Positions 4,396 through 16,272 of a stretch of 33,264 nt of DNA are shown here, piece by piece (position 1 is the first letter of the stretch; each line of letters starts with the position of its first letter). Under the pieces are notes generated by a model. That model made no database searches. It had not been told where the DNA came from and was given only the letters and a program-made list of their open reading frames with translations. The translations under genes and the position numbers were made by a program. The stretch comes from a virus, in IMG/VR virus record IMGVR_UViG_3300023174_002304, positions 1-33,264 of that record; one strand, 5' to 3'.

Positions 4396-5474
4396 TATTC
4401 TGTTCTCTCTGTATTTAATGCTTCAACATATAGTTCACGCATTACGGTTTTAAGTTTCTCTGGTTCAACTTTTAATGCCAAGTTGTCAATATACTTAGAC
4501 AAGATAGTCATTGTATCTTCTGCTTGATCGATGATATCTTGATCCATATCAATCAAGTTGTCTGTAAAGTCTTCAACGATTGATATATCTGCTACTTGAG
4601 CTTTATATAAGTTATCAAGCACAGTATCAAACAAATAAGGATTTTGTTTATTAAGAACTACAACTTTGACAAAACTGTCTTTGTGTTGGTCAAAATCATA
4701 TGTCTTCCAAAATTCAAAATCATTTACTGTATCATCATATGTAATCTTATAAAACATCTTATATGGATTAGGCACAAAAGTTAATTCTCTTGTATCAGTA
4801 TCAAAGATATGAAAACCTCTTTGGTCATTATAATCAGCCCAAGTCATCTCATATTGATTACCGAGATAGAAGATTGTTCCATCATTTGATTTGTGATGGA
4901 AGTGACCAGATAAGACCATATCAAATCTATCAAACATTTTCTTATCTAGACCTTGTAGGCACACATTGCCACGATCCATTTCAAATCCAGCAATTTCAAA
5001 ATGGCCAAAAACTAAATTGACTTCAGCGTTCTTTAAAAGATGTACACTTCTGTCATAGTTGTCATCACATATCCATGGCATTAAAAGAATATCAACACCA
5101 TCAAATGTTGCAATCTTTGGATTCTCATAGATAAAAGGTTCATTTACTTTATCATATGTTGTGCATAGATTGTTTACGGCATTTACTCTATTGGTATTTT
5201 TATAGTATGTGTCGTGATTACCAATCAGTATGTGTGTGTCAATATTGTTATCCCAAAATCTACGCATAAATCGATTTTGGAAATCATCTGCAATTTTATG
5301 ATTGATAAATTTTCTACGATCAAGAACATCACCGAGATGTATACATGTTTTAATGTTATGTTCGGCTAAGTATGGAAAGAATATGTTATCCCAAAACTTA
5401 AAGAAGTATTCATTGAATATTAGATTGTCGCCTCTTGCGCCAAAATGGGTATCATTTATTAAAGCTATTTTCAT
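4395..5474 (-). CDS. 47: gp47 recombination endonuclease nuclease subunit (Mre11/SbcD-like)
   Basis: Metallophosphoesterase nuclease that works with gp46. The five phosphoesterase motifs are present: DTH (Asp8, His10), HLGD (Asp49), GNHD (Asn86, His87), GHFE (His158) and SGHFHH (His191, His193). The length of 359 residues matches the family (T4 gp47 is 339). The start at 5474 is supported because the first beta strand MKIALINDTH begins exactly at this ATG, as in homologues. No Shine-Dalgarno is visible upstream; instead two tandem TATAAT sequences lie at 5477-5488 and a consensus -35 lies 17 bases further up. Its mRNA is therefore expected to be nearly leaderless. Confidence 0.97.
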   Translation of the reverse strand: MKIALINDTHFGARGDNLIFNEYFFKFWDNIFFPYLAEHNIKTCIHLGDVLDRRKFINHKIADDFQNRFMRRFWDNNIDTHILIGNHDTYYKNTNRVNAVNNLCTTYDKVNEPFIYENPKIATFDGVDILLMPWICDDNYDRSVHLLKNAEVNLVFGHFEIAGFEMDRGNVCLQGLDKKMFDRFDMVLSGHFHHKSNDGTIFYLGNQYEMTWADYNDQRGFHIFDTDTRELTFVPNPYKMFYKITYDDTVNDFEFWKTYDFDQHKDSFVKVVVLNKQNPYLFDTVLDNLYKAQVADISIVEDFTDNLIDMDQDIIDQAEDTMTILSKYIDNLALKVEPEKLKTVMRELYVEALNTERTE

Positions 5475-5482
5475 AGATTATA

Positions 5483-5511
5483 ATTATATAACAAATCAAC
5501 TTGAGTGTCAA
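5483..5511 (-). promoter_or_regulatory. Consensus sigma70-type early promoter for gp47 operon
   Basis: On the minus strand, TTGACA (5511-5506) and TATAAT (5488-5483) are separated by exactly 17 bases. A second TATAAT follows immediately at 5482-5477. The TGA stop of gp55 is embedded in the -35 hexamer. Predicted transcription starts about 5477-5475, one to five bases before the gp47 ATG at 5474. Confidence 0.88.
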
Positions 5512-6059
5512 GCGGATTCGGGTATATCTTCAATAAATTTTTCAAGGCCTTTTACTTTGCCTTCTTTTTTCTTCCGTTTACTTTCTTCAAAGTTATGAAT
5601 GAATTCGGAAATGTTATCATACATTTGGAACTGTTTCATATGGCCATCGGAATCTTCATACATCTCATACTCATCTAGAATGCCATATTGTTCTGTTGCC
5701 TTGTACTTAACATACAATTGTTTTTTCTCTTTCATAATCCTACGAAGGAAGGCAAAGTAAATAATCTGTGTGAAGTAGGCAAAAGGATTACTACTCTTGG
5801 TAGGATCAAAGTTGCGGAAATACATTAAACAGTTTTCGATGCCATCTGAAATCATTTCATCACGGAAAGAATATGAGATGAAGTTTGGCTTGCGTGATAA
5901 GTGTTCAGCAATTTTTAGAAAACACTCACCAATATAATTTGGTATTCTAGGGTCTTCTTTGCCATTAGATTTTGCTTCGTCACACAATTTACGATATTCT
6001 ACTAACGCAGCCAAGAAATCTGCATTGTTAATATAGTGTTTTGGTTTCTTTTCACTCAT
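5508..6059 (-). CDS. 55: gp55 late-transcription sigma factor
   Basis: A 183-residue homologue of T4 gp55 (185 residues), the small sigma factor that lets host RNA polymerase recognise the TATAAATA late box, together with the sliding clamp. The region around residues 60-115 (RDEMISDGIENCLMYFRNFD, then NPFAYFTQIIYFAFLRRI and a basic stretch) corresponds to the sigma region 2 core-binding and -10 recognition helices. Late boxes are indeed visible in front of the head and tail genes of this window. The start overlaps the stop of the upstream oxygenase by 4 bases (ATGA). The stop codon lies within the -35 element of the next promoter, so gp55 ends exactly where the early gp47 unit begins. Confidence 0.93.
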   Translation of the reverse strand: MSEKKPKHYINNADFLAALVEYRKLCDEAKSNGKEDPRIPNYIGECFLKIAEHLSRKPNFISYSFRDEMISDGIENCLMYFRNFDPTKSSNPFAYFTQIIYFAFLRRIMKEKKQLYVKYKATEQYGILDEYEMYEDSDGHMKQFQMYDNISEFIHNFEESKRKKKEGKVKGLEKFIEDIPESA

Positions 6060-6658
6060 AAGTTACTTTCGAAAAGTTTTGCTTTGATTGTTCGTTTATC
6101 ATATTTGTATTCCGGGTAAGGTCCATTTTTATCAACATAGTGCATGAATACTTGCCCCATTCTATAATCGGAAGGTCCTTCACATATTTCACGCCAGTGT
6201 GTTAACTCACAGCCACGGTACACGATTGCGTCACCTTTGTCAAGCGAATACTCTTTATCTATCATCCATATTGGCCAGTTGTACCCACCGGTATCTCCTA
6301 ACTTCATTGTTAAAGAAATTTCACATGAAGGTCTGTCTCTATGTGCTTTCAATTCATTACCTGGTTTATACAAACGAGTATAAGTATATGTAGGAAACAA
6401 TTCAAGGCCTGTAACTTCTTCCATTTTAGGTCGCATATGTTTCATTAAAGAATCAAATGCAAGATCACCATGCCTTGAACCAAATGATCCTGGTACTTGT
6501 TCATCACCTTGAATAGCAACTTTATTAATACCACCCATCACAATAGCATGACTTGAGAATCGTAGGTACTCAAACAGATAATCTGCTACTTCAGATGTAA
6601 TAAAATTTTTGACAAGAACATAGCCCTGTTCTTTAAATGTTTCGGCATAGTTATTCAT
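6056..6658 (-). CDS. 2OG-Fe(II) oxygenase, second copy
   Basis: A 200-residue dioxygenase distinct from the one between gp47 and gp46. The triad is His106 and Asp108 in AHRDRP, His154 in LTHWRE, with Arg166 in YRMGQ as the likely 2-oxoglutarate anchor. The N-terminus (YAETFKEQGYVLVKNFI) resembles the entry helix and strand of phytanoyl-CoA or prolyl-4-hydroxylase-like phage proteins. A Shine-Dalgarno (AGAAGGAA) lies before the ATG. It is the first gene after the 71-base gap that holds the divergent promoter pair, and it is translationally coupled to gp55 downstream, so it should be made together with the late sigma factor. The substrate is unknown. Confidence 0.88.
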   Translation of the reverse strand: MNNYAETFKEQGYVLVKNFITSEVADYLFEYLRFSSHAIVMGGINKVAIQGDEQVPGSFGSRHGDLAFDSLMKHMRPKMEEVTGLELFPTYTYTRLYKPGNELKAHRDRPSCEISLTMKLGDTGGYNWPIWMIDKEYSLDKGDAIVYRGCELTHWREICEGPSDYRMGQVFMHYVDKNGPYPEYKYDKRTIKAKLFESNL

Positions 6659-6675
6659 ATTTCCTTCTATTCAGC

Positions 6676-6704
6676 TTGACAAGTGTTTGTGGTTATCATA
6701 TAAT
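6676..6704 (+). promoter_or_regulatory. Perfect sigma70 consensus promoter on the plus strand
   Basis: TTGACA at 6676-6681 and TATAAT at 6699-6704 with a 17-base spacer, reading rightwards against every gene in the window. Predicted start near 6711. No gene follows on this strand, so the transcript would be antisense to the 3' end of the SDR gene at 6730-7656. The -10 lies in the inverted repeat ATCAT-ATA-ATGAT at 6695-6707. Confidence 0.75.
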
Positions 6705-6723
6705 GATGGTGTTCCGCCGTTAA
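6695..6723 (-). promoter_or_regulatory. Weaker minus-strand sigma70-like promoter for oxygenase-gp55
   Basis: On the minus strand TTAACG (6723-6718, 4 of 6 consensus) and TATGAT (6700-6695, 5 of 6) are 17 bases apart. The -10 overlaps that of the plus-strand promoter by two bases, so polymerase could occupy only one at a time. Predicted start near 6688, giving a leader of about 30 bases before the oxygenase ATG at 6658. Confidence 0.5.
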
Positions 6724-6729
6724 GATTAA

Positions 6730-7656
6730 TTATATGTTACCATAAACTGTGTTACGAATCATTCTATAACCTTTAATTAACTCTTGAATCCCAGCATCTA
6801 GACTCATCTGAGTTTTAAAGCCTGTAGATTCTATCTTGTCGTTAGACACAATGTAATTACGTTGGTCAGGGTCTTTACCCACTTCTGCTTCCATAAAGGT
6901 AAATGTAGGGATGTATTTCTGAATAATCTCACACAGTTCTTTCTTAGAGATATTAGCTTCAGAAAGTCCCACGTTATATACTTGATTCTTCATACTATCA
7001 TATTTATTGATTGCGTGTATGAATGCATTTGATATATCGCAAACATGTATGTAATTTCTTTTGAAATGTCCTTCAAATAGAATTGTGAATCCGTCTTTAA
7101 CGGCACGATGCACAAAATCATTTACCAACAAATCAATACGCATACGAGGTGACATGCCAAACACAGTCGCCAATCTATAGCTAATTGTATTTGAATGGTC
7201 GAGTAATCGTTTCTCTACTTCTACTTTATCTATCGCATAACGAGAAATAGGATTCAATGCAGATTCCTCAGTACAGTATGTACCAGTACCATATGCACTA
7301 TTTGTTGTTGGCATAATAACAATCTGTTCTTTCGATAGATTATCAATCATCATAAAGATGGCATCTTTGTTTGTAGATGTTGCACCAATAGGATCTTTAT
7401 TGCACAACGGTGCACCAACATATGCAGCCAAAGGAATGATAATGTCTGCTTGTTTCAACAATGGAAACAAATCATGTTTAAGACGAACATCACCATTGTA
7501 CACATTGAATTTTTTGTTTGCACATAACTGATTCAATGATGTTTGTCCATACATGAAGTTATCAAGTACAGTTACATTATGTCCCTCATTCAACAGATTC
7601 GGCACAAGTATTGAACCAATATAACCTGCACCACCTGTTACTAAAATATTTGCCAT
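6730..7656 (-). CDS. NAD(P)-dependent SDR sugar epimerase/reductase
   Basis: A 308-residue extended short-chain dehydrogenase of the nucleotide-sugar epimerase/dehydratase group. The N-terminal Rossmann motif is TGGAGYIGS (residues 7-15). The active-site segment is TTNSAYG followed by YAIDK, giving the Tyr-x-x-x-Lys pair. There is no Thr-Asp-Glu triad of the 4,6-dehydratases, so a C4 epimerase or 4-keto reductase is more likely than a dehydratase. It begins one base after the stop of the ColD-like gene, with AAGGT as ribosome binding site. ColD is paired with the SDR ColC in colitose synthesis, so this may be the reductase/epimerase acting after the dehydratase. It is the last gene of the accessory block before the gap at 6659-6729. 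Confidence 0.88.
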   Translation of the reverse strand: MANILVTGGAGYIGSILVPNLLNEGHNVTVLDNFMYGQTSLNQLCANKKFNVYNGDVRLKHDLFPLLKQADIIIPLAAYVGAPLCNKDPIGATSTNKDAIFMMIDNLSKEQIVIMPTTNSAYGTGTYCTEESALNPISRYAIDKVEVEKRLLDHSNTISYRLATVFGMSPRMRIDLLVNDFVHRAVKDGFTILFEGHFKRNYIHVCDISNAFIHAINKYDSMKNQVYNVGLSEANISKKELCEIIQKYIPTFTFMEAEVGKDPDQRNYIVSNDKIESTGFKTQMSLDAGIQELIKGYRMIRNTVYGNI

Positions 7657-7657
7657 A

Positions 7658-8827
7658 TTATACCTTATTTAAAACTTTGCAAATTTCATCTACTTCACTC
7701 AAAGACATTGATGGGAAATTACCAATATAGAATCCATAAAAATGAATGTGTTCTGTATTTGGAAATTCCAAATGATAATCTTTCTTCACATAGTTTCTGA
7801 TGTATGGCTGTCTTACTTGATTACCACCACCTGCACTACCTCTTCTAAACTCAATACTGTTGTCTCTTAGCTTATTCATCAGTCTTTCAGCTACATTATT
7901 ATTTGGTTCTTTTAGAATAACTTGAAAAGCATAGTTACTAGAACCTTCCATTAGAAAGTCTGTTTGATAAACATCTTTGTTTATTTTTTCTAGGAATCTT
8001 TGATGATTTCTGTTTCTAAGTATAACATTATTATCTAAGTTTGGCAACTGTTTACGACCAAGTATACCTCCAATCTCGTTGTTTCTCATGTTATATGCCG
8101 GATAAAAGAATATGAAATCTGAGTTTAATTCGGGATTCAATCTCTTGTAGGTGTCTTTGGTATCCTGTAAAGAAGCTTCACGAACCATACCATGTGAACG
8201 AAGCATTCTCAATGTTTCATAAACATCTTCATCATCGGTACAAACCATACCACCTTCAATCGTAGTCATGTGATGAGCATAATAGAATGAGAAGTTGGAC
8301 ATCCAACCAATACTTCCTAGTTTCTTACCATTGTGTGTTGCGCCATGAGATTCGCAGACATCTTCAATCAAAGGAATGTTTAGACTATGCAACTTACTAA
8401 TCAATGTATCGGTAAGGCCATCAAATCCTTGAACGTGTGTCATAAACACAGCTCTAGTATTGTCAGTAATAGCACCAATAATTTTATCGGTGTCCATTGC
8501 AAGTGATTGTGGGTTAATGTCAACAAACACTGGAGTGAATCCACATTGAATAACAGATGCAATATCCGATACCCACGTTAGTGTTGGAACAATTATTTCA
8601 CCGCCTTGAGGGTATTTAATTTTGAGAACAGTCATTGACAAAAGATTTGCCGATGCACCAGAGTTAACAAATACTGAATACTTTACACCCAACCATTCTG
8701 ACCATTCTTTTTCAAACTCACGGCAATTAGGTCCGTTGGTTAAAATTGGATCATCTTGTTCCAGATGTTTAATAACTGCATCCAATTCACTACGCAGAAT
8801 ATTGTTTCTCATCAATGGGTATTTCAT
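7658..8827 (-). CDS. ColD/RfbH-like PLP-dependent sugar 3-dehydratase (DegT fold)
   Basis: A 389-residue member of the DegT/DnrJ/EryC1/StrS fold, almost exactly the size of E. coli ColD (388). The PLP-binding Asp is in IEDVCESHGA (residues 154-163). Where sugar aminotransferases have the Schiff-base Lys in an FSF...K segment, this protein has YYAHHMTTIEGGM with His185 and His186. Replacement of that Lys by His is the hallmark of ColD (His188) and RfbH, which use PMP/PLP to remove the C3 hydroxyl of a 4-keto-6-deoxy nucleotide sugar. I therefore favour 3-dehydratase over transaminase. The exact nucleotide and sugar are not readable. It sits between a 75-residue orphan, overlapping it by one base, and the SDR gene. 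Confidence 0.88.
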   Translation of the reverse strand: MKYPLMRNNILRSELDAVIKHLEQDDPILTNGPNCREFEKEWSEWLGVKYSVFVNSGASANLLSMTVLKIKYPQGGEIIVPTLTWVSDIASVIQCGFTPVFVDINPQSLAMDTDKIIGAITDNTRAVFMTHVQGFDGLTDTLISKLHSLNIPLIEDVCESHGATHNGKKLGSIGWMSNFSFYYAHHMTTIEGGMVCTDDEDVYETLRMLRSHGMVREASLQDTKDTYKRLNPELNSDFIFFYPAYNMRNNEIGGILGRKQLPNLDNNVILRNRNHQRFLEKINKDVYQTDFLMEGSSNYAFQVILKEPNNNVAERLMNKLRDNSIEFRRGSAGGGNQVRQPYIRNYVKKDYHLEFPNTEHIHFYGFYIGNFPSMSLSEVDEICKVLNKV

Positions 8828-9054
8828 TATCTACCTTCTTTAATATATTGTACACTCGGACCGTTACTACTAAAAGCTAAACCAGATAGTTTGCCTTCAA
8901 ATCGTTTACCAGTCCATTTCATTTCTAACTTCAAACTCTTTTGAATACTCACACTCAAATATTTTTGAGCTTGAAAACTCAAAACATCAACCATCATTTT
9001 CTTATCATTGTTTTCACAAATGATTTCACATACATCACTAACATACTCACTCAT
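8827..9054 (-). CDS. Small uncharacterised protein
   Basis: A 75-residue protein that I do not recognise. It has no membrane segment or signal peptide. It is charged, with an acidic N-terminal part (MSEYVSDVCEIICENND) and a central/C-terminal part rich in Lys and Gly around MKWTGKRFEGKLSGLAF. A ribosome binding site AAGGAT lies before the ATG at 9054. The stop overlaps the start of the ColD-like gene by one base, and the gene lies 8 bases after the GHMP kinase, so it is a true member of the operon rather than filler. A small chaperone-like or carrier role is possible but nothing in the sequence, such as a carrier-protein DSL serine motif, supports it. Confidence 0.65.
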   Translation of the reverse strand: MSEYVSDVCEIICENNDKKMMVDVLSFQAQKYLSVSIQKSLKLEMKWTGKRFEGKLSGLAFSSNGPSVQYIKEGR

Positions 9055-9062
9055 AATAATCC

Positions 9063-10055
9063 TTAACTTGAATGTATAATTTGACTACCATCTGTATCAA
9101 ATTTAAAAGGCACCCATACTTTAATAGAACTCATTTGTTCTTTAAACTTTTCTTGTTTCTCTGGTGGCACTAAGAAGAAAAAGAAACCACCGCCTCCTGC
9201 ACCCATTAGTTTACCACCAAGTGAGCCATACTTTATAGATGCATCATATATGTCATCAATCCATTCTTCAGATACACCTTCGGCAAGTTGTCGTTTCAAT
9301 CTCCATCCATAAGATAGTAATTGACCAATACTTGCCATATCTCTTTCTTCTATCATATAGTCTATTGCTATATTTGATAGTGCGGCCATTGCTTCTAATT
9401 CAGAAGTTGATTTGCCTTCTTTAATATTGGCAACTTTCTTTTTAGATTGAATTTCTGAATATCGACTAACACCAGAAAAACCAAGCATGATATGTGACTC
9501 CAATTCTTTTGTGTAATCGGCAGATAACTTGAACTCAGTAGTAGTCCAATCTTTGCCTTTACTACAATCAATAATGCGAACACCACCATGTGCAGCCATG
9601 ATTTGATCTTGTATGCCAACATTCTCTCTTAGAATGTTTTGTTCAATATAGATAGCTTCTTTTGCTAACTCATCTTTACTTAGGGGTCGGTTTTTGAAGG
9701 TGTAGAGTGCATTCAATAGTCCAACAGTAAATGATGAACTAGAACCTATACCAGAACGAGCAGGTAGATCACCTTCATACACAACAGAAACACCTTTATC
9801 AACACCCATGTATCGTAGGCATTCTCTTGCAGAAGGATGTTTAATTACATTAAGAGAGTTTACTTTTTCTATTTCAGAATAGGTAATAACTGTACTATAA
9901 TCAAAGAAAGGCGGTACATCTCTTACAGTAATATAACAATATTGTGCCATTGCAGCTGAAACAATCTTTGTAGGATGATTTTCAAACCACGCTGGATAAT
10001 CTGTACCACCACCAAAAAGAGATAGTCTATAAGGAGTTTTACTAATTACCATCAT
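9063..10055 (-). CDS. GHMP sugar kinase (heptose-7-phosphate kinase-like)
   Basis: A 330-residue ATP-dependent small-molecule kinase of the GHMP superfamily. Motif 1 is TPYRLSLFGGGTDYP (residues 7-21), motif 2, the phosphate-binding loop, is PARSGIGSSSSF (98-109), and motif 3 is KLMGAGGGGFFFF near 279-291. This combination is typical of the HddA/fucokinase-like branch, which includes D-glycero-D-manno-heptose 7-phosphate kinase acting at the anomeric hydroxyl in GDP-heptose synthesis. The assignment to heptose is by family likeness only. In a heptose pathway the partner would be a HAD phosphatase (GmhB), and a HAD gene is present at 14704. Two ATGs are adjacent (10055 and 10052); the first overlaps the upstream stop in an ATGA junction. 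Confidence 0.88.
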   Translation of the reverse strand: MMVISKTPYRLSLFGGGTDYPAWFENHPTKIVSAAMAQYCYITVRDVPPFFDYSTVITYSEIEKVNSLNVIKHPSARECLRYMGVDKGVSVVYEGDLPARSGIGSSSSFTVGLLNALYTFKNRPLSKDELAKEAIYIEQNILRENVGIQDQIMAAHGGVRIIDCSKGKDWTTTEFKLSADYTKELESHIMLGFSGVSRYSEIQSKKKVANIKEGKSTSELEAMAALSNIAIDYMIEERDMASIGQLLSYGWRLKRQLAEGVSEEWIDDIYDASIKYGSLGGKLMGAGGGGFFFFLVPPEKQEKFKEQMSSIKVWVPFKFDTDGSQIIHSS

Positions 10056-10957
10056 AAAGTTATATGTTTAAGAGAGCCACTTGTGTAGTGACTGAACACA
10101 GTTTTTTTATCCACGACATTTTCTTTCTCACTACGCAAACAAGCAATATACAAATCTTCACCAATGTTTGGTACAGAATCTAGATATTCACCTTTGCGAT
10201 CCGGATGCACATCATGGTCACCAGCAAAAATAGTGGTATCAATTGATACTCTACTACTTGCATATGGCAATCTTTTTGTTTTATGTAACAAAGCATAGTC
10301 GCTTACATTTATATATTGTTGTTCTGGAACGATCCTATCATCATCATAGTAATCAGTTACCCATTGCATACTTGTATACTCAGCTGATGTTTCTAGGAAT
10401 CTATCTTCAAAGGCAGACTCATCTTTGAGTTTATAGAAATGCAAATAATTTCTTTGTGTATCACCAAAAATAGGTAGATGACAATTCATACCCCACGGAC
10501 CTTCTACCCATGCATCAGAGTGTGGCAAACCTGTGTCGAGACCACGGCCAATATTGTCTTCCAATTCTTCTGCAAACTTGATACGAATGTTTGGTGTTAA
10601 TCTAAATTTCTTTAGATAACTAGGATCATTTTCAATAAAGTGCTTGACTACATCACACCAACTGCGAATATAAAAGTTATATTCTAACGCATATTCTTTT
10701 TTAGGAACAACACCACCATTTGGTGTTACGTTAGTTCTATCATTACGATGTGCATCAAGTCTGTGCATAAACACATCTTCACGTTCCGAATAATCGAAAT
10801 GTAATGCCTTTGCAATATACATTCCAATAGAACGCTTCAATGCATCATAAAGATTTTTAGGTATTCTTTTACGAATGAATAGTTCATTAACGTGTTCTGC
10901 ACCCCATGTTTGAGCCATCTGACTCATTCTATCTTTGCGGTACTGTAATGAACTCAT
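10052..10957 (-). CDS. Unknown protein with 2OG-oxygenase-like metal residues
   Basis: A 301-residue protein that I cannot assign to a named family. Its central region has PHSDAW (His146, Asp148), then CHLPIFGD and a NYLHFYK strand, then LLHKTKRLPYASSRVSID with His225 and Arg236. An HxD pair, a distal His, and an Arg eleven residues later followed by a beta strand is the arrangement of the double-stranded beta-helix Fe(II)/2-oxoglutarate dioxygenases. The residues in front (about 1-130) are helical and basic. If this reading is right it would be a hydroxylase or desaturase within the sugar pathway. It overlaps the TPP enzyme beta subunit and the GHMP kinase by 4 bases each. Confidence 0.55.
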   Translation of the reverse strand: MSSLQYRKDRMSQMAQTWGAEHVNELFIRKRIPKNLYDALKRSIGMYIAKALHFDYSEREDVFMHRLDAHRNDRTNVTPNGGVVPKKEYALEYNFYIRSWCDVVKHFIENDPSYLKKFRLTPNIRIKFAEELEDNIGRGLDTGLPHSDAWVEGPWGMNCHLPIFGDTQRNYLHFYKLKDESAFEDRFLETSAEYTSMQWVTDYYDDDRIVPEQQYINVSDYALLHKTKRLPYASSRVSIDTTIFAGDHDVHPDRKGEYLDSVPNIGEDLYIACLRSEKENVVDKKTVFSHYTSGSLKHITL

Positions 10958-11856
10958 TTTAATATCTCTTTAATTTTGGCAATAATTTCATCTTTAGATG
11001 GTGGTAAATTATCAACTTGTGGATAAAAACCAGCTGACTTATCTTTTAATCCCATGACATGCATTTCAGAAGCTGTGCCTTTACATAAATCAAATGCCAA
11101 ACTCTTTGCAATACCATCAACATAGTCATCATCTAAAACAATACCATATCGAGCTCTTTTTAAAGTAAGTATATCATTCTCTGTAGGATTAAAAGGTTTG
11201 ATATTAACAATATGATGTACGGCAACTTTGTAACCTTCTTTTTCTAATTCTTTTGATGCTTCAACAGCTGCAAATCTAGTAATAGAAATAGGAAACAAAA
11301 TAATATCAGGTATATCATATTCAATATTGGGTAATTCTTCTGTGTTACCATATGCACCACGATGTTCTGATACATAAACTACATCATCAGATTCCATAAA
11401 ATCGGCATATGCTTGTTCATATTCACCAGGTGTCATTGGTGATACAATTTTAATTCCAGGCATTCTATAATACAATGCGTGATGTGATGAACCTGCAACA
11501 GGACCAATACCACCTTCCATTGCAATAGAACGAACAAACATTGGACAAGGTACACCCCAAATCTCTTTTGATTTGGCTGCGTAGTTAATAATCATTGGTG
11601 CATTGAACCAATTGAACCCTTGGTAACGAATGACATACATTGGTCTACGACCTGCAAGAGCCGCACCGACTGCGAAACCACCACCTGCAACATCTGCCAT
11701 TGATATCTCTACCATACCATCTTCTTCATATAGTTCAGGTAAAGTACCACCAACCCACCCAACGGCAGTTAGACATTGACCCATCGCAAGGCCTTTTTCT
11801 TCTGTTAAATGATATCTAACAGTTTCTTTAATTGTATCTCTTAATGTGATAGACAT
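10954..11856 (-). CDS. TPP-dependent E1-like enzyme, beta subunit
   Basis: Beta (pyrimidine-binding) subunit of a two-chain thiamine-diphosphate enzyme of the pyruvate/branched-chain 2-oxoacid dehydrogenase E1 or split transketolase type. Family features include the segment MVEISMADVAGGGFAVGAALAGRRP (given here only as its pattern of Asp and Gly-rich turn near residues 48-75), PVAGSSHHALYYRMPGI and a C-terminal transketolase domain with IVNIKPFNP. I use the ATG at 11856 rather than the GTG at 11865, because AAGGAAG at 11873-11867 is well spaced for the ATG and almost touches the GTG. It overlaps the alpha subunit by 16 bases, ensuring coupled production. No E2 or E3 genes are present, arguing against an oxoacid dehydrogenase complex. 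Confidence 0.85.
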   Translation of the reverse strand: MSITLRDTIKETVRYHLTEEKGLAMGQCLTAVGWVGGTLPELYEEDGMVEISMADVAGGGFAVGAALAGRRPMYVIRYQGFNWFNAPMIINYAAKSKEIWGVPCPMFVRSIAMEGGIGPVAGSSHHALYYRMPGIKIVSPMTPGEYEQAYADFMESDDVVYVSEHRGAYGNTEELPNIEYDIPDIILFPISITRFAAVEASKELEKEGYKVAVHHIVNIKPFNPTENDILTLKRARYGIVLDDDYVDGIAKSLAFDLCKGTASEMHVMGLKDKSAGFYPQVDNLPPSKDEIIAKIKEILK

Positions 11857-12668
11857 TTTGACCACGCTTCCTTCACTCTCTGTTCGGCCTCTTTAACAAT
11901 ATCGGTGCCAAACTTATCAATATAAATTTTGTGTCTGTCGAATGTATGTGGGTCATCAATACCTGCACCCGCATGCCAGAACAAACGATTTGTTGTCACG
12001 TTTAATAACATAGGTTTTTCCATGTTATGTGACTCAATAAAATTCCAAATCATTAATGGATCATCAGGCAAACCAGATGCATTTACATTCATACTTTGAG
12101 CTACATCTTGTAGTTCCCAATTACGTCTTACTTTTTTCTCAGTAAGAATTGATAGGTTGTTATCTTCAACGATGTACCAAATGGGCAAGTTCTTTGTTGA
12201 TGCCCAACCAATTGCAGTTAATGAATAGTCTTCTTCACCAGCTGCATCACCAGTAAAACATAATGTTAGTTTTTTATTGCCGTAACACATGCCAGTTGAA
12301 ATTGGAACATGCGAACCCATAAGACCATCATGTCCATAGATTTGTTTTTCTCTACATTGAATTGAGGCAGAACCACCCATACCATTGGCACAACCTCTTG
12401 GGTCACCAAGTAATTCATAAACAAGTTCTTCAATGTTACCACCGAAAGACAAGTATGTAGAATGTCCTCGGTGTTGAATGAAGATTTGTTTATCAATAGA
12501 TTCTAGATAAGTGGCGAGAGTAGCAGATGTGTACTCTTGTCCGGCAGAAAGATAAACAGGTATCTTTATAGTTTTATCTTGTAGCCGTCTGTAAACTTCT
12601 TCCTCGAATGCACGGCACAATGAGGCCTTACGGAAGATTTCTTTATCAAGTTCATAACTTAGTGGCAT
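11841..12668 (-). CDS. TPP-dependent E1-like enzyme, alpha subunit
   Basis: Alpha subunit of the same TPP enzyme, 275 residues. The thiamine-diphosphate motif is present as GD at residues 140-141 followed 28 residues later by NN at 170-171. The segment HRGHSTYLSFGG (66-77) and the glycine-rich NGMGGSASI (95-103) are typical of E1 alpha chains. At 275 residues it is shorter than mitochondrial-type E1 alpha and lacks a phosphorylation loop. Known relatives outside central metabolism include E1-like pairs in antibiotic and O-antigen sugar clusters, where they attach two-carbon branches. The start overlaps the DJ-1 gene by 17 bases. Confidence 0.88.
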   Translation of the reverse strand: MPLSYELDKEIFRKASLCRAFEEEVYRRLQDKTIKIPVYLSAGQEYTSATLATYLESIDKQIFIQHRGHSTYLSFGGNIEELVYELLGDPRGCANGMGGSASIQCREKQIYGHDGLMGSHVPISTGMCYGNKKLTLCFTGDAAGEEDYSLTAIGWASTKNLPIWYIVEDNNLSILTEKKVRRNWELQDVAQSMNVNASGLPDDPLMIWNFIESHNMEKPMLLNVTTNRLFWHAGAGIDDPHTFDRHKIYIDKFGTDIVKEAEQRVKEAWSKCLSH

Positions 12669-13197
12669 TTTGTTTCACCATATCAATAGCAGTTTTCATC
12701 CAAATACCCATGTGGTCATAATGTGGTGATGATACGATATTACCATCTACAACTACGGGTGCATTAACATATTTAGCGCCTGCATTATTGATATCATCCT
12801 CAAGACTATAGTAACCACTAATCTCACGACCTTCAACAATCTTGGCTGAAATCATTAATTGAGCACCATGACATGTAGAAGCAATTACTTTACCTTGTTT
12901 GTTCCAATCTGAAATAAATTGAATGACACGTTTTTCTTGTCTCAACTTCTCTAAAGCTTTAACACCACCAGGCAATACCAACAAATCAAAACATCGTTGG
13001 TAAATTTCATAAAAATTCTCTGGTTTTAAATCATTAATGGTAACATGTGAAGTCATATTAGACCCCATGATACCAAAGAATTTACCTGCTACGTTGGACA
13101 TAACAGTAACATCATCCGTTTCTTCTTTCAATCGATAGAATGGATAAACCAACTCTTGGTCTTGAAAATTTTCCCAAGTAATAATAAGTGCCTTCAT
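12652..13197 (-). CDS. DJ-1/PfpI (class I glutamine amidotransferase-like) protein
   Basis: A 181-residue DJ-1/PfpI superfamily protein. The nucleophile elbow is ASTCHGAQLM with Cys109 and His110, and a conserved acidic residue is at Glu15 after FQDQ, which in the family tunes the cysteine. LVLPGGVKAL (73-82) is the second glycine loop. Members act as glyoxalases, deglycases, proteases, chaperones or amide hydrolases, so the reaction cannot be read here. I place the start at the ATG at 13197, because AGGAGA at 13209-13204 gives normal spacing for it, whereas the TTG two codons upstream lies immediately against that site. Two bases separate it from the radical SAM gene. Confidence 0.88.
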   Translation of the reverse strand: MKALIITWENFQDQELVYPFYRLKEETDDVTVMSNVAGKFFGIMGSNMTSHVTINDLKPENFYEIYQRCFDLLVLPGGVKALEKLRQEKRVIQFISDWNKQGKVIASTCHGAQLMISAKIVEGREISGYYSLEDDINNAGAKYVNAPVVVDGNIVSSPHYDHMGIWMKTAIDMVKQNATKL

Positions 13198-13199
13198 AA

Positions 13200-14711
13200 T
13201 CAATCTCCTAATAATTTACGTTTCAATTTAATTGTCTTTGTTGAGTCCAACTCATCTCTGGCCTTTTGACCAAATTTATTTTCTAATAGATTTAAATACT
13301 TATCATTCGAATGATAGGTATCCCAAGCCTTATCTCTAAATGCAAGGATTTCTGCCGAAGTTAAATGTTCATTTGATAGATTCAAAGTGTCGTATGAATG
13401 TTGACTGTAACCAGAATATGTACTTGGCAACTCTGTACCAAACAATCGTGCTTGATTATGTAATGGACTACCTGGATATGCCATTGCAGAATAGAAGTTT
13501 GCCATCTCAGTTGGATTCTCTAATGCAAAGTCTAATGTAGCCTGCATTGTTTCTTTTGTATCATACGGCAAACCAAAAATATAATTACCACCAACATTGA
13601 TACCTGCATTACGAATATCATTAATCAAATCTAATACTTTAACTTCTTGGAATCCTTCTTTGTGAATTTCTTTACGCAAAGTGTTATTTGGATTTTCAAT
13701 ACCAAGACCTAACCATTTGACACCAGCCTTTTGTAACTTCTCTAAGTACTTAGGCTTGCAGGTATCGACTCTTGAATATGCCCAAATATTGAAATCGTAT
13801 CCACGTTCAATAATCAAATCACATATTTTACCAAAATGGTTTGGGTTTAAAACAAACAGTTCATCAGCAATCTTTACATTACGAACACCTTGTGATGCAA
13901 TGTAATCAAACTGTTTAATGATAAACTCTGGCGACCACCAACGAAATGTATTACTATCGGCACTTGATACATTATCACCTTGTTTAGTTCTGTTGATAAT
14001 ATTAATCATACAGAAAGAACACTTGTATGGGCAACCAAGACTTGTATAGATGGCTGCAAATGGTTGTTTCTCTGTGTCATTAGACCATGAATGCCACCCA
14101 GCAGTTCTATACTTACTTAAAGATGGTAACAAGTCCCATGCCATACCAGGAAGTTCTTCTTCAAGTCTTTCTTTTGGAACAACTTCAGTCGGCTCATTCA
14201 TAATGATATTAACACCATCTCTATAAACTAAACCAGGAACTCTTTTAAGTTCAGACTGAGTTAATTTACTCAATGACAGCAATGCATGTAATGTATAAAC
14301 ACCTTCATTCTGACACACGGCATCAATGAATGTTTCTTGTTTCATTGTTTGTACTGGCAAAGCTGCAACGTGGCCACCAACAAACACAATGAATGTATCT
14401 GGTGATAAGTCTTTCAATTCTCTTGCAGTCGCAGTTGCACCTTCCATGTTTTGTGATGATGCAGATGGTTGTTGACCATATACAACAAAACAAACAATCT
14501 TTGTTTTATATTCTGTGATTCTTTTTGCGGCAGATAGGTAATCTAAACCTTCTACTTCTGCATCTAAGATTTCAGGTTTAAATCCTTTTGCACGAACACT
14601 ATTCGCCAACATTGCAGCCCAAATAGGTGGTTCAATTGCGGCATTGTTTTTTGCAAGGCCTTGATAAATCTTTTCAGATGCGTTAGGATGTACAAATAAT
14701 ATATCAATCAT
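13200..14711 (-). CDS. B12-binding-domain radical SAM protein
   Basis: A 503-residue enzyme with an N-terminal cobalamin-binding Rossmann-like domain (about residues 1-145, beginning IDILFVHPNAS and with the VFVGGHVA turn near 109-116) followed by a radical SAM domain with CPYKCSFC (Cys227, Cys231, Cys234) that would bind a 4Fe-4S cluster. B12 radical SAM enzymes often methylate unreactive carbon or phosphorus, and a few catalyse rearrangements. GGNYIFGLPYDT near 386 is typical of the barrel. I use the ATG at 14711, which fits the usual start of the first strand, instead of a TTG four codons upstream; it overlaps the HAD gene by 8 bases. It is unusual in a phage and depends on host cobalamin and iron-sulfur supply. 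Confidence 0.88.
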   Translation of the reverse strand: MIDILFVHPNASEKIYQGLAKNNAAIEPPIWAAMLANSVRAKGFKPEILDAEVEGLDYLSAAKRITEYKTKIVCFVVYGQQPSASSQNMEGATATARELKDLSPDTFIVFVGGHVAALPVQTMKQETFIDAVCQNEGVYTLHALLSLSKLTQSELKRVPGLVYRDGVNIIMNEPTEVVPKERLEEELPGMAWDLLPSLSKYRTAGWHSWSNDTEKQPFAAIYTSLGCPYKCSFCMINIINRTKQGDNVSSADSNTFRWWSPEFIIKQFDYIASQGVRNVKIADELFVLNPNHFGKICDLIIERGYDFNIWAYSRVDTCKPKYLEKLQKAGVKWLGLGIENPNNTLRKEIHKEGFQEVKVLDLINDIRNAGINVGGNYIFGLPYDTKETMQATLDFALENPTEMANFYSAMAYPGSPLHNQARLFGTELPSTYSGYSQHSYDTLNLSNEHLTSAEILAFRDKAWDTYHSNDKYLNLLENKFGQKARDELDSTKTIKLKRKLLGD

Positions 14712-15183
14712 ATTTTTTACCAATCAAATCATTCCAATTAAGTTCTTTAGAGTCAACAGCTGTTACATGCTTAAACTGTTTCATTTTATTTAGCACATCA
14801 TCATTATCATCATAGAAAACAATTTTATCTACAACAAACTTAACATCAAGTGTCTTATCATATATCTTAGACTCTAATCTTTTGATAAAATTAAAATAAT
14901 TGTATATGCCAAATTTTCTTAATAGATGCACAGATTGTTGATGTTCATAGGGTATTGTTGGGTGTTTACCAGCAGAAACAAACCCTATTTTGTTGTTACC
15001 ACTTTGAAGATATTTTAAATAGTCCTTTACACCTTCTCTGAGTATGCATATAGAACCAACATCATCAACGATAACGTCATCGGTATTATTAAAAGGGAAA
15101 ACCATTTGTTTTGCCCAAATAGGATCATTGTGTTTATTGAAACAATCCCAAATTGTTAAGTCTAAGTCAAATAAGTGTATCAT
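14704..15183 (-). CDS. HAD-family phosphatase, MDP-1/subfamily IIIC-like
   Basis: A 159-residue haloacid-dehalogenase phosphatase. FDLDLTIWD at residues 5-13 has the DxDxT motif (Asp6, Asp8, Thr10), and the form FDLDxTxW is characteristic of magnesium-dependent phosphatase-1. Motif II is FVSAG (Ser70), and motif III is VFYDDNDDV with the acidic pair at 125-126. There is no large cap domain, which suits either a macromolecular or a sugar-phosphate substrate. The related HAD GmhB dephosphorylates heptose bisphosphate, and FkbH-type IIIC domains load glyceryl units, so a role next to the GHMP kinase is plausible. It overlaps both the cupin gene (4 bases) and the radical SAM gene. Confidence 0.85.
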   Translation of the reverse strand: MIHLFDLDLTIWDCFNKHNDPIWAKQMVFPFNNTDDVIVDDVGSICILREGVKDYLKYLQSGNNKIGFVSAGKHPTIPYEHQQSVHLLRKFGIYNYFNFIKRLESKIYDKTLDVKFVVDKIVFYDDNDDVLNKMKQFKHVTAVDSKELNWNDLIGKKYD

Positions 15184-15836
15184 TTTGTAATCGAAATCAT
15201 AGTTGTAGTTGGTTCAAGATAAAATGCCTTTAACAGGCGAGAGAGAGTATGACCATCAATAACATCACCAGGCCATACAATAATTTGATTTGTGTGGGTA
15301 CAAATACCACCATTCGTTATAATATATAAGTCTTCTTCTTTACCATTCATTAAAGATCGCTTAACTGGCTTAATGTGCCTTATTTGACAGTTAAAGACTT
15401 CTACAGGTTTAGATTTATTATTAGCTTCTTCTATCCAAATACATTCATCAGTCTTTTCGAAATGATGTTTTGTACCTTCGTATTGTTCACCAGTTCTACC
15501 ATACTTGTCTTCTAATCTAACCAAGTCATGTTTATCTTCCGGCGTTTCAACTTCAAGTATGAATGCACCACCTTTAGATACTGCTTTTGTAGAATGAAAT
15601 CTAGACCTAAAGATATGTATCTTGTCTAGAGCTTTTAATTTAATTGTATTCCGTAAGAACGATAACTCTGTTTTGCCTTTAAGTAAAACAAAACCAGTGT
15701 TCTTATTCGGATGACAATGCATTGAAGTTTCTTTACCTTCTTCAATGTGTAGAAACCAAATTGCAACATTCGAATTTCTATAACAGAGATATTCCATACC
15801 CCAAGGTTTTTTCACAATAACATCACTATAGTCCAT
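15180..15836 (-). CDS. Cupin-domain protein resembling phosphomannose isomerase type II
   Basis: A 218-residue protein. The first cupin (about residues 8-115) opens with KPWGMEY, has SMHCHPNKNTGFVLLKG (His39, His41) and RFHSTKA as likely metal ligands, and ends with VETPEDKHDLVRLEDKYGR. This last segment is very like the C-terminal cupin of mannose-6-phosphate isomerase/GDP-mannose pyrophosphorylase proteins and of capsule phosphosugar isomerases. The second half (about 140-218) looks like a degenerate second cupin. It could isomerise a sugar phosphate feeding the kinase and dehydratase downstream. The start lies one base beyond the stop of the upstream gene and the stop overlaps the HAD start. 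Confidence 0.78.
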   Translation of the reverse strand: MDYSDVIVKKPWGMEYLCYRNSNVAIWFLHIEEGKETSMHCHPNKNTGFVLLKGKTELSFLRNTIKLKALDKIHIFRSRFHSTKAVSKGGAFILEVETPEDKHDLVRLEDKYGRTGEQYEGTKHHFEKTDECIWIEEANNKSKPVEVFNCQIRHIKPVKRSLMNGKEEDLYIITNGGICTHTNQIIVWPGDVIDGHTLSRLLKAFYLEPTTTMISITK

Positions 15837-15837
15837 T

Positions 15838-16272
15838 TTAATGTACCTTACTATTACGTCTTTCTTTTAACAATTCAACTAACTCTTCCTCATCCAACTC
15901 TGCATCTGTTGGACCATCATCGTCATCTTCACCATCAAACAACTGTGGCCTAATTGAAGACTTTGTTGCATGTTTCACATCTTCATCACATACTGCATTA
16001 GAATAATACTCTACTAAATCATCTTTTGGATCTATAACAGTAAGTATATCTGCCTCATAAATTATAGCAGAATTTTCTTTAATCAATTCTATTGGCAACC
16101 AAGGCATCATCATCATTACGGATCTACCCGTTGATACTCTTTTAAATACGATGTGCATCGGCCTATTCAGTAAAACAGTATCACTATCTTCTATTGCTGT
16201 GCAATCAGCTATAATATCTTCGCCACTTTGCAAACGAACAATTTTAATTTGCGATTCTGTTGTATTAAGCAT
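15838..16272 (-). CDS. Uncharacterised acidic-tailed phage protein, possibly Sm-like
   Basis: A 144-residue protein. Residues 8-55 (IKIVRLQSGEDIIADC, then NRPMHIVFKR) form a run of short beta strands that recalls an Sm/LSm-like small barrel; this is an impression of fold only. Residues 109-135 are very acidic (DGEDDDDGPTDAELDEEELV), which may mimic nucleic acid or be disordered. Proteins of this type follow uvsW in other T4-like environmental phages, so I regard it as a phage core-associated gene rather than part of the sugar pathway. The start overlaps the uvsW stop by 8 bases. Confidence 0.6.
   Translation of the reverse strand: MLNTTESQIKIVRLQSGEDIIADCTAIEDSDTVLLNRPMHIVFKRVSTGRSVMMMMPWLPIELIKENSAIIYEADILTVIDPKDDLVEYYSNAVCDEDVKHATKSSIRPQLFDGEDDDDGPTDAELDEEELVELLKERRNSKVH

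Follow-up and report, generated by a model that had tools for sequence, protein, structure and literature searches.

Why would a phage whose genes all read one way carry, at the head of the unit that holds its late sigma factor gene, a perfect host-type promoter that reads the other way? T4-like cyanophages and pelagiphages rank with the sea's most abundant viruses, and to our knowledge little is known about the timing of their late sigma factor or about the sites where their replication starts.

A consensus sigma70-type promoter points away from the gp55 unit

The window, by which we mean the whole 33,264-nt stretch of DNA analyzed here, represents part of the genome of a Kyanoviridae-type, T4-like phage. 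As the initial annotation had stated, every gene that we found in it lies on the minus strand; none reads rightward, and uvsW.1, uvsW, uvsY and the head and tail genes are all leftward. Naming the genes by profile matches (PHROG), we placed the plus-strand promoter in the 71-base gap between an SDR gene (6730-7656) and an oxygenase gene (6056-6658). The SbcD/SbcC-like genes (gp47/gp46) come after gp55. The relevant genes are as follows.

5508..6059, minus strand: gp55-like late sigma factor gene (phrog_234, E 4.7e-63)
6056..6658, minus strand: 2OG-Fe(II) oxygenase-like gene, the first in the gp55 unit of the window (phrog_2954, labelled ferrochelatase)
6730..7656, minus strand: SDR/nucleotide-sugar epimerase gene (phrog_540)
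15838..16272, minus strand: UvsW.1-like small gene, about 9 kb from the element here and abutting it in most relatives

In the window, sugar-related genes and unknown ones fill about 9 kb (6730-15836) between uvsW.1 and gp55, which are neighbors in most relatives. The SDR gene adjoins the element in a few relatives too (L023, L054).

The plus strand at 6676-6704 reads TTGACAAGTGTTTGTGGTTATCATATAAT and matches the sigma70 consensus at 12 of 12 positions, with 17 bases between the hexamers. Performing first-order Markov shuffles, we find that chance would give 0.037 such matches at this spacing per window, in line with the low chance occurrence claimed earlier. The window holds two 12/12 matches; the other, at 5511-5483 on the minus strand, has the sense direction. 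Sigma70 transcripts start about 7 nt after the -10, and the predicted +1 is accordingly the G at 6711. By every sequence test made, the element at 6676-6704 is a sigma70-type promoter. The parts of the locus are listed below.

6676..6681, plus strand: -35 hexamer (TTGACA, exact match) of the promoter that points away from gp55
6699..6704, plus strand: -10 hexamer TATAAT, exact match
6710..6712, plus strand: TGT initiator/loop triplet, with the +1 predicted from sequence at G 6711
6705..6718, plus strand: inverted repeat over the predicted start, GATGG-TGTT-CCGCC, with compensatory changes in relatives
6708..6715, minus strand: gene-sense GGAACACC box, the same DNA as the repeat, 6/8 positions invariant in 62 distinct window-family sequences
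6675..6682, minus strand: gene-sense TTGTCAAG, the complement of the -35, which in relatives is also or only found 12 bases nearer the -10
6695..6723, minus strand: promoter TTAACG-N17-TATGAT proposed by the initial annotation, 9/12 and not kept, unsupported as a conserved feature

The last of these had been proposed as a partner reading leftward from the same DNA. Its hexamers, TTAACG (6723-6718) and TATGAT (6700-6695), are present, but a 9/12 match is at the chance level: we counted 71 sites of at least 9/12, versus 90 in shuffles (20 kb). The two -10 hexamers do overlap by 2 bases within the repeat ATCAT-ATA-ATGAT (6695-6707), but neither this repeat nor the minus-strand hexamer pair is kept in the relatives.

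The promoter is retained in the family of the window

We found the loci of the window's family through oxygenase and gp55 protein searches, taking the best 80 matches per homologue search. The exact 29-base promoter of the window had no match among viral contigs. In the gene sense, the same gap of these loci carries the element ACGG[AG]ACACCGC-N-A...T-A-...TGTCAAG. Among 62 distinct window-family sequences, the core G-ACACC, A11 and T15 are invariant, and A16 is kept in 97%. On the other strand, T15, A11 and A16 correspond to A2, T6 and T1 of the rightward -10, while TGTCAA becomes TTGACA. The A2 and T6 of the -10 hexamer are therefore invariant in these sequences, and T1 stands at 97%. The closest relative among the matches listed (L003, oxygenase 92% identical) has TTGACA-N17-TATCAT, 11/12, in the plus direction. 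Conservation of both hexamer pairs, proposed earlier as a check, was thus seen for the plus-strand pair and not for the minus-strand pair, which is lost in L003 and in others.

The distance from TTGACA to the -10 in the family is 17 bases, 5 bases, or both, and the loci with TTGACA solely at 5 bases have TGn before the -10. Of the 25 loci that have no usable -35, 24 carry this extended -10, compared with 44 of 214 loci with one (Fisher 5e-14, a figure inflated by shared descent; 4e-4 on the nonredundant set). To judge from these sequences, such a trade between the -35 and the extended -10 is the behavior of a sigma70 promoter.

Upstream of gp55 in L012, L016, L025 and others, two sites separated by exactly 12 bases, and about 17 bases ahead of the start codon, carry TGTCAAG, either singly or together. 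Loci with the near copy alone look like deletions between repeats. We had also considered an ECF-like gene-sense promoter, GGAAC-N16-GTC, and rejected it on the ground that the distance of the TGTCAAG box takes either of two values, 12 bases apart.

A backward promoter lies before gp55 well beyond the family

Two more scans gave 160 further loci, and we compared 279 gp55 loci (best 80 matches per homologue search). A backward match of at least 11/12 within 260 nt before gp55 was present in 141 of the 279 loci, while shuffled sequences gave 1.9 (s.d. 1.1). At the threshold of at least 10/12, 199 of the 279 loci had a backward match before gp55, versus 23.7 in the shuffled set. Most gp55 loci have TTGAC[AT] 16-17 bases before the -10. 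The consensus of the element runs from TTGACA, for which a TGn extended -10 can stand in, through 16-17 bases and TA[TCG]NNT to a TGT initiator. All of this evidence is sequence conservation among related loci, so that the counts are not independent and the p-values mark upper limits of confidence.

We find the backward promoter before gp55 in the cyanophages S-RSM4, Sf-FP1 (TTGACA-N17-TACAAT), P-SSM5, S-CAM3 and Syn9, and also in the Pelagibacter phage Mosig (TTGACA-N16-TATAAT) and two single-cell marine viruses. In Syn9 its predicted start falls at about 123,698 on the minus strand of DQ149023. TTGACA and TGG-TATATT are six bases apart in the Methylophilales phage Melnitz, an arrangement similar to that of the short-spacing loci of the window's family; the promoters of the window and of Melnitz were assigned by eye, not by script. 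In T4 itself, gp55 stands in another gene neighborhood, with 55.1 upstream. The promoter seen in the window is thus no local accident, as the same place holds a backward promoter across gp55 loci. The earlier proposal of a strong sigma70-type promoter directed against the genes, with a likely start near 6711, agrees with the survival of its hexamers in close and distant relatives.

Forward matches, found before gp55 in 113 of the 279 loci, are gp55's own promoter. A separate gp55 promoter (at least 10/12) exists in 35 of 42 cyanophage-group loci and in 41 of 47 pelagiphage-like loci. Of 31 loci in the window's family, 19 show no separate gp55 promoter.

The gene upstream of the element is UvsW.1-like in most loci, SDR in four, and another gene in some. 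Throughout, the element stays on the side of gp55, also where uvsW.1 is not adjacent. An RNA running rightward from 6711 would be antisense to the 3' end of the SDR gene, and the initial annotation had it run against this gene and the sugar operon, with possible interference with read-through into the oxygenase-gp55 unit. An antisense role on one particular upstream gene, SDR included, is unlikely, because this gene varies between phages while the element stays with gp55.

A covarying inverted repeat straddles the predicted start

The most unusual part of the locus, missed by the initial annotation, is a covarying inverted repeat immediately past the -10, centered on the predicted start. A TGT begins 5 or 6 bases past the backward -10 in 249 of 256 elements, counted before filtering (the strictly filtered set has TGT by construction), and its G is the expected start. 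The same triplet is at the start of 4 of 90 forward gp55 promoters. The arms vary among phages: AACGG-TGT-CCGTT, GGACTA-TG-TAGTCC, GGTCTA-TG-TAGACC, CCGG-TATGT-CCGG, CTGG-TATGT-CCAG and AACAG-TGTCG-CTGTT all occur. In 125 nonredundant loci the mean pairing score was 7.0, compared with 3.8 (s.d. 0.16) when the right arm was shuffled; forward gp55 promoters scored 4.6. The repeat of the window itself (6705-6718) is weak, with 3 Watson-Crick pairs, 1 G.T and 1 mismatch, versus 4-6 pairs in relatives.

When 13 related sequences are aligned without gaps, each of the five pairs shows changes in both arms. The paired cells of this alignment amount to 92.3% (64% shuffled), and its covariation score is 0.82 (0.25 shuffled), with every slid version far lower. 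The wobbles on the backward strand are G.T in 50 cases and A.C in 1. Between sequences that differ at one base pair, we counted 193 cases in which both bases had changed and Watson-Crick pairing was kept, and 60 in which a single change gave G.T; a single change to A.C never occurred. This asymmetry indicates that the structure acts on the plus strand of the window, which is the non-template strand of the backward promoter, and not in gene-sense RNA; on this ground we rejected a gene-sense RNA hairpin or terminator. C-to-T deamination of an exposed non-template strand could account for part of the asymmetry. Since the repeat straddles +1, an RNA started there cannot hold both arms, and the strand asymmetry of the wobbles points to single-stranded non-template DNA.

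A slow-escape promoter may limit or time the late sigma operon

Comparison of the loci establishes conservation of the hexamers, the spacing, the initiator, the compensatory changes, the non-template pairing and the linkage to gp55. We propose, with a probability of about 0.6, that 6676-6718 on the plus strand is a host-sigma70-type promoter conserved among aquatic T4-like phages of the Kyanoviridae type, marine and freshwater, and directed away from gp55, whose non-template hairpin slows promoter escape and so limits or times transcription of the late sigma operon. Host RNA polymerase would start at the element and read against the genes. While it pulls DNA from downstream into the bubble, the non-template strand on both sides of +1 may, with less certainty, fold into the hairpin, and the folded hairpin may in turn slow escape. 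Scrunching in early transcription, or an R-loop, would expose the non-template strand over both arms. The dwelling or backward-moving polymerase would then limit or time the late sigma operon. With a divergent gp55 promoter present, this could happen by occlusion of that promoter, and mutual exclusion would fit Syn9, where the backward -35 and the gp55 promoter overlap. Promoter occlusion cannot account for everything, given the 19 of 31 window-family loci that have no visible gp55 promoter; there, one has to assume that read-through is blocked.

That a hairpin forms in scrunched non-template DNA is our inference, and the hairpin of the window itself is weak. If it does act in this way, it would be a new way to tune promoter escape. 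The short variable stem with a constant small loop resembles the promoters of the phage N4 virion RNA polymerase (PMC4496689). In N4, the hairpin forms on the template strand at about -11 and is read by the phage virion RNA polymerase (PMC4496689), unlike the present one, which is on the non-template strand, centered on the predicted +1, and beside a host-type -10 and -35. In its hexamers, spacing and extended -10 substitution the element is like the sigma70 early/middle promoters of T4-like cyanophages. It differs from the sense promoters of cyanophages in pointing against the genes and in having the TGT start and the covarying repeat, both of which the forward gp55 promoters lack.

We tentatively entertain the idea that this is a new architecture, in which the activity of a host-type promoter is set by a non-template hairpin on its start and which the Kyanoviridae as a whole retain as a backward-facing element controlling the late sigma operon, or as its R-loop primer. 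In the open-access papers that we searched we found no description of the element, part of which the Syn9 transcriptome paper may already map. A backward promoter with a covarying hairpin at gp55 of nearly all T4-like cyanophages and pelagiphages would offer one small piece of DNA for both questions, the timing of the late sigma factor and the start of replication.

Other roles of the element are less probable

The element could instead be an R-loop replication origin, where RNA hybridized to the template primes leading-strand synthesis, as at T4 oriF and oriG, and the displaced-strand hairpin keeps the R-loop open. We regard this as unlikely, and lean toward the slow-escape promoter over the R-loop primer. 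Several features would suit an origin: the hairpin is on the non-template strand, the scanned 95-157 kb contigs and Syn9 contain no second clear copy of the element, and the first 20 nt are G-rich in two groups (0.33-0.35 versus about 0.06-0.19 further along). The element adjoins uvsW, whose T4 counterpart unwinds origin R-loops (PMC3016281), and a single theta origin is predicted for Syn9, its place not being given (PMC2984593). Like oriF and oriG (PMC3016281), the element is promoter-driven, is near uvsW in most relatives and is expected to have a single-stranded non-template strand; unlike them, it has a sigma70 -35 in place of a MotA-box middle promoter. However, neither the four long contigs nor Syn9 had a GC-skew turning point at the element. 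The T4 origins have an A+T-rich unwinding element; here the AT content at +21..+60 reaches 0.73-0.76 in cyanophages only, and no clear unwinding element is seen in the other two of three groups, the pelagiphage-like and window groups having no AT-rich stretch beyond background. In the window, moreover, uvsW is 9 kb off while the element stays with gp55.

A regulatory antisense RNA or a trans-acting small RNA starting at the element also seems improbable to us. The promoter and initiator are conserved, and antisense RNA is known in one T4-like cyanophage: S-PM2 expresses CfrI, of about 225 nt, at psbA (PMC2984593, PMC5931967). (CncR1, which we considered as a cyanophage RNA, is a name that belongs to Helicobacter.) Putative antisense transcription is the likeness to CfrI; unlike CfrI, the present element is known from sequence and has no conserved RNA. 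The gene on the opposite strand differs between lineages, and Rfam gave no match to the element. The initial annotation had placed a stop at a weak hairpin at 6800-6818, giving an RNA of about 105 bases. This hairpin fails our terminator scan, and an intrinsic terminator after the rightward start is not conserved in relatives (7 of 125 loci). With no shared terminator and with sequence conservation ending about 15 nt past the predicted start, no discrete RNA is supported, whether of 105 bases or another length.

Still more doubtful is a symmetric bidirectional promoter of the 18-bp form, in which one shared TATNATA would also drive gp55 leftwards. Such promoters are common in bacteria (Warman and Grainger; PMC12825309), and the element resembles them in its partly symmetric -10, often TATNATA, and in the opposed gp55 promoter that is close by in many phages. 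The predicted divergent starts in the window (6711, 6688) are 23 bp apart, and bidirectional spacings are 10, 18 or 23 bp. Most window-family loci, besides, have no other visible gp55 promoter. Against the symmetric promoter suggested earlier, the gene-sense -35 of the 18-bp geometry is at the background level in all three groups (3.1, 2.3 and 2.3 matches versus 2.6, 2.5 and 2.7). The gene-sense -10 is also weaker (3.7-4.2 versus 4.6-5.7), its first base being kept in cyanophages only, and cyanophages and pelagiphages have a separate gp55 promoter.

An operator that acts in the gene sense, as RNA or as DNA (a terminator, a translational operator or a repressor site), with the other-strand hexamers as its by-product, is very improbable even though the gene-sense GGAACACC box is nearly invariant in the window's family and TGTCAAG lies about 17 nt before the start codon there, because a gene-sense RNA hairpin would tolerate plus-strand A.C (1 seen, against 50 G.T), the arms change sequence, unlike a protein operator, and the sigma70 hexamers at 16-17 spacing are kept far outside the family.

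Other sigma70-type promoters in the window and in related contigs

The same consensus serves sense genes in T4-like cyanophages. An example in the window is the second 12/12 promoter (5511-5483, minus strand), at the junction of gp55 and the SbcD-like gene (gp47); a sense match of at least 10/12 is at the gp55/gp47 junction in 84 of 106 relatives. Its -10 ends only 8 bases before the annotated ATG at 5474; the leader may thus be very short, or the actual start codon may lie further inside the gene. A sense TTGACA-N17-TATACT (11/12) is also at the start of uvsY (18207-18179, minus strand).

Other genomic matches to the gene-sense box, considered as a second copy of the element, were in coding sequence or unconvincing. 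Sense sigma70 promoters with a TGT start triplet occur at about 78838, 102989 and 104767 in contig G001 (IMGVR_UViG_3300043570_001741) and at about 94932 in contig G004. After the promoter at 78838 comes TGTTCCGTTGA, a feature that it shares with the gp55 element.
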